A stretch of 64,000 bases of DNA from positions 372,001 to 436,000 of the forward strand of contig UCNE01000013.1 of NCBI GenBank assembly GCA_900473685.1. The letters run 5' to 3'. The notes under the pieces are model-generated. The model did not search any database. It saw only the letters and a list, made by a program, of their open reading frames with translations, and was not told the origin of the DNA. The translations under genes and the position numbers were made by a program. Below are positions 38,555 to 53,313 of the stretch, piece by piece. The number at the start of each line of letters is the position of its first letter. The stretch's first letter is position 1. Source of the stretch: Hyphomicrobiales bacterium (GTDB lineage Bacteria > Pseudomonadota > Alphaproteobacteria > Rhizobiales > Rhizobiaceae).

Positions 38555-39127
38555 TTACATGCCTTGCGGACCGCGGTTCATGGCTGCGATGCCAGTACGG
38601 CAGACTTCGAGCACGCCAAGCGGCTTCAGGATCGCCACGAACTGGTCGATCTTGGAGGATTTTCCGGTGATTTCGAGGATGAAGTGCTCGAGCGTCGCGT
38701 CGATCACCTTGGCGTGGAAAGCATCGGCAAGGCGCAGCGTTTCCGCCCGGGTCTCACCCTCCCCCGAAACCTTGACCAAGGCCACTTCGCGTTCGATCGG
38801 CCGGTCATGACCGAGTTCGGCGGCGCGCACCGTCAGATCGACGACGCGGTGGACCGGAACGATGCGTTCCAGCTGCGCCTTGATCTGTTCGAGCACGTGC
38901 GGCGTGCCGCGCGTGACGATGGTGATGCGCGACAGGTGCGACTGGTGCTCGGTCTCGGAAACTGTCAGGCTTTCGATGTTGTAGCCGCGGCCGGAAAACA
39001 GGCCGATGACGCGGGCAAGGACGCCCGGTTCGTTATCGACGAGAACCGAAAGCGTGTGGTTTTCCGCCTTCTCTGTTTCCTTGGCGATGAAATAGGCGGA
39101 GCCGGTCGGCTGAAGATGTGCGTTCAT
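38555..39127 (-). CDS. ilvH: Acetolactate synthase small (regulatory) subunit
   Basis: The 190-residue protein begins a valine-binding ACT domain (about 20-95; HTLSVLVDNEPGVLARVIGLFSGRGYNIESLTV) and a C-terminal ALS_ss_C domain (to about 180). It gives feedback inhibition by valine and stabilises the catalytic subunit. It lies 22 bases downstream of the large-subunit gene and shares its attenuated promoter. Also named ilvN in some annotations. Confidence 0.97.
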   Translation of the reverse strand: MNAHLQPTGSAYFIAKETEKAENHTLSVLVDNEPGVLARVIGLFSGRGYNIESLTVSETEHQSHLSRITIVTRGTPHVLEQIKAQLERIVPVHRVVDLTVRAAELGHDRPIEREVALVKVSGEGETRAETLRLADAFHAKVIDATLEHFILEITGKSSKIDQFVAILKPLGVLEVCRTGIAAMNRGPQGM

Positions 39128-39149: not shown

Positions 39150-40943
39150 TCAAACCAGTGCGCGGCCCTTGGCGTCGATCGCATTGGCAACCGCTTCGTC
39201 CGTGGCTTCGTCTGGCAAAAGCATCTCGTTATGGGCCTTGCCCGATGGGATCATCGGGAAGCAGTTGGCGAGATTGGCGACGCGGCAATCAAAGATCACC
39301 GGCGCCGGGCTGTCGATCATCTGCTGGATTGCAGCATCCAGATCAGCCGGCTTGTCGCAACGGATGCCGACGCCGCCATAGGCTTCGGCCAGCTTGACGA
39401 AGTCGGGCATGGCTTCGGTATAGGAATTGGACAGACGGTTGCCGTGCAGCAATTGCTGCCACTGGCGCACCATGCCCATATACTGGTTGTTGAGGATGAA
39501 GATCTTGACCGGCAGGTTATGCTGCACGGCGCAGGACATTTCCTGGATGCACATCTGGATCGAGGCGTCGCCGGCAATGTCGATGACCAGCGCATCGGGA
39601 TGGGCGACCTGGACGCCGATTGCTGCCGGGAAACCGTAACCCATGGTGCCGAGGCCACCCGAGGTCATCCAGCGGTTCGGATGCTCAAAACCATAGAACT
39701 GGGCCGCCCACATCTGGTGCTGGCCGACTTCCGTGGTGATGTAGGTGTCGCGATGCTTGGTCAGCTCGTACAGGCGCTGGATGGCATATTGCGGCATGAT
39801 GACATCGTCGTTCATCTTGTAGGCCAGCGAATTGCGGCCGCGCCAGCGGACGATGCCCTCCCACCAGTCTGCCAGCTGGCTCTTGTCCGGCTTTCCGGCC
39901 GAGGCCCGCCAGACGCGAACCATGTCTTCCAGAACGTTACCGACGTCGCCGATGATCGGAACATCGACGCGCACGGTCTTGTTGATCGAGGACGGATCGA
40001 TATCGATGTGGATCTTCTTGGAATTCGGCGAAAAGGCATTGAGACGGCCGGTAATGCGGTCGTCGAAACGGGCGCCGATGCAGACCATGACGTCGCAATC
40101 GTGCATGGCCATATTGGCTTCGAAGGTGCCGTGCATGCCCAGCATACCGAGCCAGTTCTTGCCGGAGGCCGGATAGGAGCCCAGTCCCATCAGTGTCGAG
40201 GTGATCGGGAAATTGGTCAGCTCAACCAGTTCGCGCAGCAGTTTCGATGCTTCCGGACCGGAGTTGACGACACCGCCACCGGAATAGATGACCGGACGGC
40301 GCGCGCCCTTCATCAGCTCGATCGCCTGCTCGATCTGGCGCATGTCGCCCTGCAGCTTCGGCTGATAGCTCTTCTGGACCTTGGAAGCCGACGGCGGCGT
40401 ATACGTGCCGGTAGCGAACTGAACGTCCTTCGGAATATCGACGACGACCGGGCCAGGACGGCCGGACTGGGCGATGCGGAACGCCTCATGGATGATGCTA
40501 GCCAGCTCGTTGACGTCCTTGACCAGCCAGTTGTGCTTGGTGCAGGGCCGCGTGATGCCGACGGTATCGCATTCCTGGAAAGCGTCCGAGCCGATCAGCG
40601 ATGTCGGAACCTGGCCGGTCAGGCAAACCAGCGGAATGCTGTCCATCAGTGCGTCCTGCAGCGGCGTAACGGCATTGGTCGCACCCGGACCGGAGGTGAC
40701 CAGCAAAACGCCGACCTTGCCTGTCGAGCGGGCATAACCTTCGGCCATGTGGCCGGCGCCCTGCTCGTGGCGAACGAGGATGTGCTGGATATCGTCCTGC
40801 TGGAAGATTTCATCATAGATCGGCAGAACGGCACCGCCCGGATAACCGAAGATATGCTCCACACCATTGTCCCTCAATGCTTGAAGAACAATTTCCGCCC
40901 CTGTCATCTGGTTTGCTTGCGTCTGGTTGTCTGTACCGCTCAT
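39150..40943 (-). CDS. ilvB: Acetolactate synthase large (catalytic) subunit
   Basis: A 597-residue ThDP/FAD enzyme that condenses pyruvate to acetolactate or with 2-oxobutyrate to acetohydroxybutyrate. It has the catalytic Glu region AEIVLQALRDNGVEHIFGYPGGAVLP, LVTSGPGATN, FAD region and the ThDP motif GDASIQMCIQEMSCAVQHNLPVKIFILNN. I start at ATG 40943 (MSGTDNQTQ); the in-frame ATGs 40961 and 41036 are in the leader RNA. The first codon lies about 170 bases after the leader peptide start, downstream of the attenuator terminator. Often named ilvI. Confidence 0.97.
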   Translation of the reverse strand: MSGTDNQTQANQMTGAEIVLQALRDNGVEHIFGYPGGAVLPIYDEIFQQDDIQHILVRHEQGAGHMAEGYARSTGKVGVLLVTSGPGATNAVTPLQDALMDSIPLVCLTGQVPTSLIGSDAFQECDTVGITRPCTKHNWLVKDVNELASIIHEAFRIAQSGRPGPVVVDIPKDVQFATGTYTPPSASKVQKSYQPKLQGDMRQIEQAIELMKGARRPVIYSGGGVVNSGPEASKLLRELVELTNFPITSTLMGLGSYPASGKNWLGMLGMHGTFEANMAMHDCDVMVCIGARFDDRITGRLNAFSPNSKKIHIDIDPSSINKTVRVDVPIIGDVGNVLEDMVRVWRASAGKPDKSQLADWWEGIVRWRGRNSLAYKMNDDVIMPQYAIQRLYELTKHRDTYITTEVGQHQMWAAQFYGFEHPNRWMTSGGLGTMGYGFPAAIGVQVAHPDALVIDIAGDASIQMCIQEMSCAVQHNLPVKIFILNNQYMGMVRQWQQLLHGNRLSNSYTEAMPDFVKLAEAYGGVGIRCDKPADLDAAIQQMIDSPAPVIFDCRVANLANCFPMIPSGKAHNEMLLPDEATDEAVANAIDAKGRALV

Positions 40944-40998
40944 TGGCCTGTTTCCGTCCATGTTCGCGTTTTGGCTGTGAGTATCGTGTTTGAAGGCA

Positions 40999-41022
40999 TA
41001 AAAAAAGGCCCCTTGAGGGCCT
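40999..41022 (-). terminator. Attenuator terminator before ilvB
   Basis: On the minus strand, AGGCCC, loop TCAAG and GGGCCT form a six-pair GC-rich stem followed by TTTTTT. It is inside the ilvB leader, 34 bases after the leader-peptide stop codon, and 56 bases before ilvB. It is the terminating hairpin expected for ilv attenuation. Confidence 0.85.
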
Positions 41023-41030
41023 CGTGTTTT

Positions 41031-41078
41031 GCGCATGGGTGGCTATCGCCGGATGGTTACACCATCCTGCCCATGCGC
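41031..41078 (-). promoter_or_regulatory. Nested stem-loop of the ilv leader
   Basis: Outer arms GCGCATGGG (41070-41078) and CCCATGCGC (41031-41039) are perfectly complementary. Inside them, GGATGG (41062-41067) and CCATCC (41051-41056) pair. The ascending strand lies within the leader reading frame, so ribosome position would decide its formation. I cannot resolve the competing antiterminator by eye. Confidence 0.7.
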
Positions 41079-41113
41079 CGTCCCACCACAAGAATAACTG
41101 CGATATTGATCAT
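41057..41113 (-). CDS. ilv leader peptide (18 aa), nearly leaderless
   Basis: A small frame reads MINIAVILVVGRRMGRMV and then TAA. Codons 2 to 10 include two Ile (ATC), one Val (GTT), Ile (ATT), Leu (CTT) and two Val (GTG GTG), i.e. seven of nine are branched-chain control codons. A sigma70-type promoter ends right before it and no Shine-Dalgarno sequence is apparent, so the transcript would begin within about three bases of the ATG. A terminator lies downstream, and ilvB-ilvH follow. This matches ribosome-mediated attenuation by branched-chain aminoacyl-tRNA. Confidence 0.85.
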   Translation of the reverse strand: MINIAVILVVGRRMGRMV

Positions 41114-41121
41114 GGGCGGGA

Positions 41122-41150
41122 TTGATAAACAGAAATACTTGTTCCGTCAA
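41122..41150 (-). promoter_or_regulatory. Sigma70 promoter of the ilvL-ilvB-ilvH operon
   Basis: On the minus strand, TTGACG (complement of 41145-41150), a 17-base spacer and TATCAA (complement of 41122-41127). Transcription should start about 41114-41116, immediately before the leader peptide ATG at 41113. Confidence 0.75.
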
Positions 41151-41250
41151 CGTCTTTCCCGAAAACAACCATAGCAGGTACAAATCCACAAAAACACGCT
41201 CAAGTCCAAGAAACCACTTATTAAATCCCTTTGGGTAATATGGTGTATTC

Positions 41251-43314
41251 GTGACCAGAGGTTTCCCATTGCTGAACAATGAGCTCCATTCTTCGATCAG
41301 CGCCGGAGAACAGGATCGACGCGATGCCCTGAAACGCGGCAACCGTTTCCTCGGCCGCGTCGTCGCGTGCAGCGGTTCGCGGGCGACGATTGCAGCTATT
41401 GCCGAAAACGGCGAGACATCGCTGACTGAACTCTGGTCCGTTGGCAGGCTCATTTCCATCACGGTCGGCAAAAACCGCGTCGTTGCACTTGTGTATTCAA
41501 TGCAGACGGCCACCAACGAATGGGGCGAAGAACTCGACAACACGTTCCGCATCGAAGTGGAACTGATGGGCGAAGTTCATCTGAGCCCAAACGGCCGCGA
41601 AGAATTCTCCGCCGGCATTACCCAATATCCCTATCTCGGCGCTATCGCCCACCGCATCCGCTCGGCCGACCTTGCCCGCATCTACGATACCGGCAAGAAC
41701 GACACCTGCGTCATCGGCAAGCTCACCCAGGATGACAGCCTCGACGCGACCATCCATGTCCCCTCGATGCTGTCGAAGCATTTTGCCATCGTCGGCACCA
41801 CTGGCGTCGGCAAGTCGACGGCGGTCAGCCTGTTGCTGCACAAGGCCATCGCCTCCGATCCGAAGCTGCGCGTCCTGATCCTCGACCCGCACAACGAATT
41901 CGCCGCCGCCTTTCCCGATATCGCCGTGGTCATCGATACCGACAATCTCGACCTGCCCTTCTGGCTGATGCGACTGGAAGAATTCGCCGAGGTGATTTTC
42001 CGTGGCCGGCCGCCGGTTCCCGAAGAACTCGATATCTTGCGCGATGTCGTTCCGGAGGCAAAACGGGCCTTCAAAGGCTCGGCCGACTCCGGTGTGGCGC
42101 GCCGTACCAGCGAGAAAAGCTCAATTACCGCCGATACACCGGTTCCCTACCGCATGGCAGACCTGTTGGCGATGATCGACGAGCGCATCGGACGCCTCGA
42201 AGGCCGCAATGACAAGCCGCACCTGCGCTCCCTGAAGGTCAAGGTGATGGGCGCCATCAACGATCCGCGCTACAATTTCATGTTCTCCTCGAACACGATC
42301 ACCGACACCATTCTGGAAACCATCGCCAAGATTTTCCGTATTCCGGGCGACGGGCGGCCGGTTACGACCTTTCAGCTCGCCGGAATTCCGTCGGAGGTCG
42401 TCAACTCGGTTGCCTCCGTGCTTTGCCGCATGGCGTTTGAAATCGCGCTCTGGAGCAATGGCGGCGTTCATATGCTGGTCGTCTGCGAAGAGGCCCACCG
42501 TTACGTTCCCGCCGATGCCAGCCTGGGTTTCGTGCCGACTCGCCAGGCCATCGCCCGCATCGCCAAGGAAGGCCGGAAATACGGTGTTTCGCTGGGGATT
42601 ATTACACAGCGCCCCGGTGAACTTGACCCGACCATCCTGTCGCAGTGCTCGACCGTCTTTGCCATGCGGCTCTCCAACGACCGCGACCAGGAAATCATCC
42701 GCTCGGCGATCCCCAATTCGTCGATTTCGACCACCAGCTTTATCTCTTCGATCGGCAATGGAGAAGCCATCGCCTTCGGTGAGGCCGTGGCCGTGCCGAT
42801 GCGCATGCGCTTTACCCGCGTCGATGAAAAGAGCCTGCCCAAGGCCAACGGCGTCGCCGTCAAGGTCACCGACGAAACCCCGGATACCGTCGATCTGCGC
42901 AACGTCGTTTCGCGTATGCGCGCCATGAGCGGTCCGGATATTTCCGGCTTTCAGAACGCTTATATGGCAAGCGCCGGCGCACAGGAGCAGGGTGCGGTCC
43001 CGGCGGACGACGACCTTCGCGACATCCGTGCCTTTAACGCTGACCTTGCCGAAGACCATGAAGCGGCGGCGTCCCAACCTTACAACCCGGGCATGCTGCC
43101 ACGCAACGAGCCGCCCAATCCGCAGCTTGAACGGTTCAACCAGATCCGCAGTCAATTGCTGTCGGATGAGCCGCCGGCCCCCTCGCTGTCAGATCCCTAC
43201 CGTACACCCGCCCGCCCCGCGCCGAGCTTCGCGCAACCCAATCCGGACCAACCCCGGCCATCGCTGCGCGAGAGCCTGCTGAAGAAGCCGCTGAGCAGCA
43301 TCATCCGCAAGTAA
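41251..43314 (+). CDS. HerA-like ATPase/DNA translocase (DUF87)
   Basis: A 687-residue HerA/FtsK-type hexameric ATPase. N-terminal HAS-barrel-like beta region (about 30-130), Walker A GTTGVGKST (182-190), LILDPHNEF, Walker B MLVVCEEAHRY and the signature LGIITQRPGELDPTILSQCSTVFAMRL. The C-terminal 130 residues are Pro/Ala-rich and look disordered. HerA normally works with the NurA nuclease in end resection; no nurA is nearby, as in other alphaproteobacteria. The start codon is GTG 41251; it faces away from the ilv operon. Confidence 0.88.
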   Translation: MTRGFPLLNNELHSSISAGEQDRRDALKRGNRFLGRVVACSGSRATIAAIAENGETSLTELWSVGRLISITVGKNRVVALVYSMQTATNEWGEELDNTFRIEVELMGEVHLSPNGREEFSAGITQYPYLGAIAHRIRSADLARIYDTGKNDTCVIGKLTQDDSLDATIHVPSMLSKHFAIVGTTGVGKSTAVSLLLHKAIASDPKLRVLILDPHNEFAAAFPDIAVVIDTDNLDLPFWLMRLEEFAEVIFRGRPPVPEELDILRDVVPEAKRAFKGSADSGVARRTSEKSSITADTPVPYRMADLLAMIDERIGRLEGRNDKPHLRSLKVKVMGAINDPRYNFMFSSNTITDTILETIAKIFRIPGDGRPVTTFQLAGIPSEVVNSVASVLCRMAFEIALWSNGGVHMLVVCEEAHRYVPADASLGFVPTRQAIARIAKEGRKYGVSLGIITQRPGELDPTILSQCSTVFAMRLSNDRDQEIIRSAIPNSSISTTSFISSIGNGEAIAFGEAVAVPMRMRFTRVDEKSLPKANGVAVKVTDETPDTVDLRNVVSRMRAMSGPDISGFQNAYMASAGAQEQGAVPADDDLRDIRAFNADLAEDHEAAASQPYNPGMLPRNEPPNPQLERFNQIRSQLLSDEPPAPSLSDPYRTPARPAPSFAQPNPDQPRPSLRESLLKKPLSSIIRK

Positions 43315-52628: not shown

Positions 52629-52799
52629 GGTGTCTCCTCACGCGGTTTGGCTTCAGCCGCCCACCTTTCCTGATGAAAGATGCGCAACACGAGTTTTTTC
52701 ACGCTTGGCGAGCATGTCAAGAGCCAACCGGCCCGAATGAACACGAAGCCGCACCCGGTATTTTCGAAAAGGCCCTTTTCTTGGCGCAGTTTAGGACCT

Positions 52800-53150
52800 A
52801 TATGACAGTTGCCGTCTTCGGGCGGCTATGGCGATAAACAGGCGATGAAATAAACCTATTGGACCCGGGGGCGGTACCCGGCGCCTCCACCAAAAACCGG
52901 TCGAAACGGCGTGCATGCCGCAAATGACAGACCGGCTTTTGATGGGGGCGAAATAGGATCGACAAGGGCGTAAAGATCGACTTTTTGCTCGGCATTGTAC
53001 CACCGTTATCGGGCTAAAATTGTAGTTGCAAACGACAACTATGCGGAAGCTCGTCTCGCTGCTTAATCGCAGTGTGACACTTCAAATCAAGTCCTAAGGG
53101 GTCGCACCTTTAGGCGGGGTTCGGAGGTACCTGGCAACAGAAACCTCCAC
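52800..53150 (+). ncRNA. ssrA: Transfer-messenger RNA, permuted two-piece
   Basis: The gene is circularly permuted, as in other alphaproteobacteria. The acceptor half comes first and ends at CCA 52890-52892 (GCGCCTCCACCA). A 51-base spacer (52893-52943) follows, with self-complementary arms CCGGTC/GACCGG and an inner hairpin. The coding half starts GGGGGCG (52944-52950), which pairs in seven pairs with CGCCTCC of the acceptor half. The tag frame reads from GCA 53028 to TAA 53066: ANDNYAEARLAA. A terminal hairpin GGAGGT/ACCTCC lies near 53123-53148. The 5' and 3' ends are approximate. tmRNA rescues stalled ribosomes and tags products for ClpXP, with sspB directly downstream. Confidence 0.95.
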
Positions 53151-53313
53151 TTCTTCCCTTTCTGTGCGCCCCTCGCCCATCCAACGCCGCCTTCTCGGTT
53201 GCCTTGAAATGGTCTATAGATGATGCAAATGACTCGTATGTCAGGACTTTCCTGCGTACAGAGCAGATGGCATAAGTGTGACAGAGTTGAGTTACAAGAA
53301 AGACGGGGATCTT

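Follow-up and report, generated by a model that had tools for sequence, protein, structure and literature searches.

What controls the acetolactate synthase genes of this locus, and how could a short reading frame upstream of them do so? On the minus strand of the window (the whole 64,000-nucleotide stretch of contig UCNE01000013.1 analysed here), positions 39150 to 40943 encode the large subunit, ilvB (ilvI; NF006581, 1226.5 bits against a cut-off of 974), whose start codon is likely to be the ATG at 40943, and positions 38555 to 39127 encode the small subunit, ilvH (NF008864, 226.3 bits, cut-off 119). The neighbour on the other side, a HerA-type (DUF87) ATPase gene at 41251-43314, is divergent and lies on the plus strand (Pfam PF01935, 161.9 bits). 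An earlier note, made from the sequence alone, had placed a branched-chain amino acid attenuator with an almost leaderless leader peptide just upstream of ilvB. Farther along the plus strand, at 52772-53151, the window also carries an alphaproteobacterial tmRNA (RF01849, 312.7 bits), which the permuted tmRNA family RF04321 matches as well.

Direct reading of the minus strand bore out the promoter and the peptide that the note had described. The -35 box TTGACG (41150-41145) is followed after 17 nt by the -10 box TATCAA (41127-41122), and the ATG, said to lie within a few bases, begins after a gap of 8 nt (41113-41111; AUG in the RNA). It opens the leader frame MINIAVILVVGRRMGRMV (41113 to 41057), 18 codons closed by a TAA stop at 41059-41057, with seven branched-chain codons (I, I, V, I, L, V, V) among codons 2-10. 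Codons 7-10, Ile-Leu-Val-Val (ATT CTT GTG GTG, 41095 to 41084), are the proposed stall codons; this I/L/V run ends 5 nt before a helix that we call P1. The nested stem-loops and the GC stem with a T run that the note had seen were likewise recovered, by folding and by a terminator scan. The stem-loops span 41078-41031: P1 pairs GCGCATGGG (41078 to 41070) with CCCATGCGC (41039 to 41031), the P2 hairpin (41067 to 41051) has a loop that, together with the first 3' base, contains the stop codon, and P3, a short GGC-GATA-GCC hairpin (41050 to 41041), completes a three-way junction in both the window fold and the Rfam consensus structure. The stem of the intrinsic terminator, GAGGCCCTCAAGGGGCCTT, occupies 41023-41005 and its T run 41006 to 41000. 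The stretch 40993-41113 has a folding energy of -51.1 kcal/mol. Shuffled versions average -36.4 (sd 3.5, z -4.16), and none of 200 dinucleotide shuffles folded as well.

The same element is already present in Rfam. The family RF02502, "Rhizobiales sRNA Atu_C8", matched at 40990 to 41111 over its full model (positions 1-122) with 113.8 bits, above the gathering score of 50. Its entry line types it as a small RNA and leaves attenuation unmentioned; the reading frame, the codons and the ilvB context are added here. The name C8 reportedly comes from an RNA-seq study of A. tumefaciens. At E ≤ 0.001, RF02502 matched in 217 of 397 genomes of the window's order, 72 of which scored over the cut-off, and in none of 14 control genomes. 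A class-wide draw gave matches in 6 of 385 genomes (2 over the cut-off), two of the six, the window's own genome and G082, being supplied by the window's order. Our own model, R1, for which 12 candidates per genome were scored in a first pass, found the element in 4 of 289 class genomes, and 3 of these belong to that order. From among the matches listed, to about E 3e-6, we chose a sample of 113 leaders (110 loci, 21 families) in which weak RF02502 matches are under-represented; 80 of 84 planned stretches were retrieved, and removal of near-duplicates left 76 leaders for alignment A1. Frames and starts were assigned to all 113 by a single rule, which considers I/L/V runs first, then ATG, then nearness to the Rfam start. 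Because the sequences are related, the leader counts that follow are not independent.

An IlvB-like frame, 67-100% identical to the window IlvB, begins within 300 nt downstream of 102 of the 113 leaders; ten others precede a transporter gene and one lies at a contig end. The note had suggested looking among relatives for a conserved small frame and for covarying stems, and both were found. An I/L/V frame is present in all 21 families, with four consecutive I/L/V codons in 102/113 leaders and three in 112/113, compared with 0.9% and 4.4% of 1695 dinucleotide-shuffled leaders put through the same rule. Any qualifying frame at all was obtained from every real leader and from 41% of the shuffled ones. 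The frame ends within the hairpin region in 113/113, and the I/L/V run stops exactly 5 nt short of P1 in 92/113 sampled and 74/76 aligned leaders. Ile-Leu-Val-Val, the run end of the window, is the commonest among leaders without a transporter link (31/103). P1 covaries strongly: its pairs (columns 47-57 with 96-104) head the APC covariation ranking of the 76-leader alignment, and at column pairs 52/99, 53/98 and 57/96 pairing is kept through changes on both sides in 33, 24 and 24 of 76 sequences, respectively. The distance from P1 to P1 is 43-53 nt and the linker from P1 to the terminator 3-9 nt (mean 6.0) across the alignment. Where the leader's own fold closes P1, the stop codon lies in the terminal loop or has at least 2 bases unpaired in 85 of 107 cases. 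Lastly, a terminator was found in 113/113, in 102 of them ahead of the IlvB-like frame, with its two arms (T5 and T3) kept paired across relatives.

Clustered codons for the amino acids that an operon makes, in a short frame conserved in relatives, are a mark of an attenuator, and the ilvB leader has them. The RF02502 element is real, conserved and already catalogued, and its copy in the window is very probably a ribosome-mediated attenuator, judging by these sequence comparisons. A chance origin of the window's features was ruled out by the fold z-score, the I/L/V shuffle controls and the TTGAC spacing described below. Two further observations were made on the set. A GCC lies within a few bases of the T run (40997-40995 in the window) in 62/113 leaders, against a background of 0.10, and falls beyond the expected end of the terminated RNA. 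Some genomes hold more than one leader: L032 (G023:C1049) is a second leader, MKIAMVLAVVIGRMGRMV, before another ilvB-like gene, which has about 70% identity to the window IlvB, and at L042, L043 and L044 two leaders stand about 2.7 kb apart, each with its own ilvB-like frame downstream and the second one downstream of an ilvH-like frame.

The distance from TTGAC to the chosen start codon divides the sample in two: it is 35-38 nt in 51/113 leaders and 53-75 nt in 41/113, with none at 39-52 nt. Of the remaining 21, 18 lack a TTGAC in the 80 nt upstream; the other 3 carry it at 25 or 29 nt, and in these the chosen start codon may be wrong. From the upstream background, 1.7 leaders would be expected to carry TTGAC 34-41 nt before the start; 51 do. 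An anti-Shine-Dalgarno duplex of -4 kcal/mol or better is available to 2% of the short class, compared with 76% of the long class and 62% of the 21 unassigned leaders, in keeping with the note's proposal that initiation here occurs without a Shine-Dalgarno site. Every short-class leader starts with ATG (51/51), as against 30/41 in the long class, where 11/41 start with GTG, a contrast that is partly built in because the start rule prefers ATG. Short-class leaders come from 6 of the 21 families and long-class leaders from 14; membership of L055 in the 35-38 nt class is doubtful, since it depends on a rule-chosen upstream ATG and its relatives in the same family, with GTG starts, belong to the long class.

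In the window the distance is 37 nt, which supports a leaderless start, and the window's own family falls wholly into the short class (25 of 25 leaders sampled). The distance gap and the Shine-Dalgarno contrast are hard to explain otherwise. Transcription most likely begins at the leader ATG or no more than 3 nt away from it. The A of this codon (41113) is the likeliest first base, with 41114-41116 as possible alternatives, and a 5' end in this interval is probable. The RF02502 model starts two bases past the same A, a possible sign that the 5' end is close to the ATG. A generic promoter scan of 40700-41400 returned no sigma-70 site, because TATCAA, a weak -10 box by that scan, fails its rule. 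The note's leaderless start is well supported but unproven. Taken together, an attenuator of ilvB-ilvH with a near-leaderless start is the reading that we favour, with a probability of roughly 0.8; this figure excludes the docking step proposed below.

In the enteric model, a stalled ribosome frees an upstream segment to capture the 5' arm of the terminator, T5. The earlier note had taken such a competing antiterminator to exist and left its pairing unresolved; here, covariation, partner swaps, upstream complementarity and a comparison of stalled with finished ribosomes all failed to reveal a conserved one. In the 76-leader alignment, the T5 and linker columns showed no excess pairing covariation with any upstream column, and the column pair 81/117, which does covary with the terminator arm, pairs less than expected. 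The 3' strand of P1 complements T5 more weakly than swapped partners do: 2000/2000 swaps were at least as good, and a mean of 99.6% were so when one sequence per family was used (21 families, 20 draws), compared with 0/2000 for each of the positive controls, P1 and the terminator itself. Other upstream segments against T5 gave 605 to 2000 of 2000 swaps as good. Fourteen tests of segments against the terminator 3' arm or loop yielded nothing convincing, the best, the P2 3' strand with T3, being marginal (112/2000), though on the side of a classical antiterminator. A specific candidate in the window, pairing of the Leu-Val codons CUUGUG with CACGAG, was rejected, as 1057/2000 swaps of the codon segment against T5 were as good. 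Scored for upstream complementarity to T5, the seven E. coli control leaders gave z-scores between -0.41 and -4.62, and the 113 averaged +0.29; z was -2 or below in 6/113, a result that favours a classical antiterminator.

Ribosome position was then modelled by folding the leader before the terminator 3' arm is made. In the E. coli controls T5 was sequestered to 0.66 under stalling (mean of maxima) and to 0.09 with the ribosome at the stop codon, hisL (0.60 at stop) being the exception. The alphaproteobacterial leaders lacked this contrast: the maximum over all I/L/V stall positions averaged 0.54 (40/113 at 0.6 or above), against 0.42 at the stop and 0.40 for the full leader without a ribosome. 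Codon by codon along the run, in the 92 leaders with 5-nt spacing (21 dropped), sequestration was 0.11, 0.10, 0.23 and 0.45, then 0.47 at the stop codon (n=87), and 0.11 when folding began at P1 with nothing upstream. In these models partial sequestration of T5 is common, yet it does not distinguish a stalled ribosome from one that has finished. T5 being mostly free at the first two run codons, pairing alone predicts no derepression on Ile or Leu starvation. The equilibrium stability of the terminator was discarded as a test because it did not discriminate the E. coli controls, five of seven of which kept a terminator probability above 0.8 under stalling (pheL 0.00, ivbL 0.63); the 10/113 alphaproteobacterial leaders that fell below 0.5 favour a classical antiterminator.

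A classical three-segment attenuator, with an antiterminator mutually exclusive with the terminator, could nevertheless exist here if its pairing were weak or lineage-dependent, so that no single covarying helix would emerge. A ribosome footprint reaches about 12 nt ahead. With the last Val codon in the A site and a spacing of 5 nt, this reach would just cover the GCGC of P1, and the freed P1 3' strand could pair with T5. The 45% sequestration at that position, 0.54 in the window leader, and the 40 leaders that reach 0.6 speak for such pairing. The equal value at the stop codon, the avoidance of complementarity between P1 3' strand and T5 relative to swapped or shuffled controls, the lack of covariation and the very poor sensing of Ile or Leu that it would predict speak against it. 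T5 pairing in these leaders may be weak or lineage-specific; we regard the full enteric scheme as unlikely, about as probable as the docking proposed below, and consider that the ilvB leader rather lacks a classical antiterminator than has one. Termination here may therefore differ from the enteric scheme.

As no conserved antiterminator was found, we propose that a stalled ribosome would dock against the terminator. In this proposal the leader is an attenuator of ilvB-ilvH that would sense charged Ile-, Leu- and Val-tRNA, with ribosomes loading onto the bare 5' AUG. With an ample supply of branched-chain amino acids, the ribosome would pass codons 7-10 and arrive at the stop codon in the P2 loop; P1 and P2 would open, the terminator would fold and a short RNA, the Atu_C8 "sRNA", would be released. 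Avoidance of pairing between the P1 3' strand and T5 is sensible if termination has to take place in this state of plenty, with P1 held open by a ribosome at the stop codon. Folded P1, formed while the ribosome waits on the codons, should then correspond to the ON state. Scarcity of any one of the three amino acids would stall the ribosome on Ile-Leu-Val-Val, and P1/P2 could close 5 nt downstream. The 5-nt spacing on one side of P1 and the linker of 3-9 nt on the other mean that the folded helix would loop out the intervening RNA and place the stalled ribosome beside the terminator, within about 6 nt of its stem, where it would hinder folding. The outcome would resemble that at E. coli pyrBI, where a ribosome close behind RNA polymerase hinders the terminator without an antiterminator. 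There, UTP is sensed through the speed of the polymerase; in the ilvB leader the distance would instead be set by the stall and the looping hairpin. Docking is the most speculative step of the scheme, and we hold it to be doubtful.

Three other explanations bear on the element as a whole. The first is a trans role for the leader peptide or for the released RNA, about 120 nt long, of the kind played by peTrpL and rnTrpL in S. meliloti; such a role would account for the conservation better than cis attenuation does. Rfam files Atu_C8 as a small RNA, and the leaderless attenuator RNA rnTrpL of S. meliloti is described as having trans functions (PMC7298713, PMC10117765); the downstream IlvB-like frame in 102/113, the conserved I/L/V run and P1 pairing maintained despite sequence change are cis features, and the available portion of PMC3738593 regards 32 A. 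tumefaciens sRNAs of an earlier study as apparent parts of long 5' UTRs, naming neither Atu_C8 nor ilv. Trans roles can coexist with these cis features, but as the main explanation they seem improbable. Somewhat less probable again is a start well upstream, or a normally translated 5' UTR, to which the TTGAC box would be incidental. The poor -10 box fits this, as does the long-UTR form, mostly with a Shine-Dalgarno site, in 14 families, by which the family as a whole has no need of leaderless starts. It is at odds with TTGAC at 35-38 nt in all 25 leaders of the window's family and in 51 overall, nearly all without a Shine-Dalgarno site, and with the divergent HerA-like frame beginning at 41251. 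Finally, the three-way junction with its GNRA-like P3, in the window and in the Rfam consensus, could be read as a ligand-binding riboswitch with an incidental frame. This we consider very unlikely, since the sequence of P1/P2 varies across the 76 aligned leaders, and what is conserved is the I/L/V frame, the 5-nt spacing and the terminator.

The attenuator that we favour has known relatives. PMC1273637 refers to an alphaproteobacterial ilvB leader peptide already described, citing Vitreschak 2004; PMC2573895, which cites that work too, has "ilvIH cis regulatory" among its S. meliloti entries, and PMC4117421 describes attenuation of Caulobacter ilvBN, citing Tarleton 1994. As cited there, the ilvIH/ilvBN attenuators share with ours the operon, a branched-chain leader peptide, a rho-independent terminator and the proposed signal. 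With the RF02502 entry and alphaproteobacterial attenuation of the same operon in print, the basic attenuator claim is not new. Leaderless attenuators also have a precedent, as the S. meliloti trp attenuator RNA (trpL/rnTrpL) begins with its AUG according to the two papers cited for it above; it resembles the form inferred for the window leader and differs in amino acid and operon. A trpL leader was sought in the window's genome with two sequence patterns and not found: the one match to the first was not trpL, and among 18 listed matches to the second one was the window leader and none was recognised as trpL. E. coli hisL, thrL, leuL, trpL, ilvL, ivbL and pheL have in common with our leaders a leader peptide, hairpins and an intrinsic terminator before a biosynthetic gene. 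A term search of the main texts of PMC3616915 and PMC10469942, both on start sites, met no ilv gene name, and in the accessible part of PMC5913331 RF02502 appears as a test family only. A literature search that covered few subscription papers, and its sources in part, found no description of the ilvB leader as leaderless, of Atu_C8 as an attenuator or of the transporter link.

This link concerns the 10 of 113 sampled leaders that precede a gene for a Bcr/CflA-like transporter. Val-rich leader copies before such an MFS transporter were recorded at L007 (= L136), L019-L022, L025, L031, L033, L035, L036, L112, L135, L137-L141 and L164, in genomes of Rhizobium, Mesorhizobium and Devosia type (the Rhizobium- and Devosia-type labels being inferred from named relatives) and in one genome of another order. 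This outlier, L112 (G502), has both leader and transporter too. Four of the proteins were compared with TIGR00710: those at L112 and L025 score above the cut-off, those at L031 and L036 below it. A scan of named genomes gave 479 relatives of the transporter, of which the best 80 were retained. Eight of these 80, with 84 to 51% identity to the query, have a leader just upstream: Rhizobium lusitanum, R. sullae, Rhizobium sp. R634, Mesorhizobium sp. WSM4311 (apparently the same record as L007), two Devosia and two "Rhizobiales bacterium" isolates. No leader at E ≤ 0.1 accompanies the remaining 72, one of which is L194, with 53% identity along a part of its length.

The transporter-linked leaders differ in their codons. 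Three consecutive Val codons occur in the last four run positions of 15/18 distinct transporter leaders versus 12/103 others, and Ile occurs in these positions in 7/18 versus 77/103. Over P1-P2, the transporter leader L025 has a similarity of 0.77 to the Rhizobium-type L031 and of 0.57 to the ilvB leader of its own genome, L037; for L019, of the same family as L025, the values are 0.74 and 0.59. Joint transfer of leader and transporter gene is therefore plausible. In E. coli K-12, ivbL (L120) happens to lie about 0.9 kb from emrD, which encodes a multidrug MFS transporter, and the rhizobial pumps also resemble EmrD (NF008654, 130 bits for L031, below the cut-off of 479); the E. coli proximity is probably a coincidence.

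Based on all of the above, one could envisage a widespread and portable class of attenuators without an antiterminator, in which a stall-triggered hairpin docks the ribosome, which exists in leaderless and Shine-Dalgarno forms and of which a Val-tuned copy accompanies a Bcr/CflA-type transporter; as a whole this picture is unlikely, and slightly less probable than docking in the ilvB leader. The findings supply a straightforward function for an RNA whose Rfam type is just small RNA, and they suggest that one attenuator occurs in leaderless and leadered forms across an order. The missing evident antiterminator and the transporter copies are the parts that most deserve specialist attention: a natural set of leaders without an evident textbook antiterminator offers a direct test bed for the termination step, and the transporter copies point to possible recruitment of amino acid attenuators by efflux-type genes, which, if true, would place a pump under the control of amino acid starvation.
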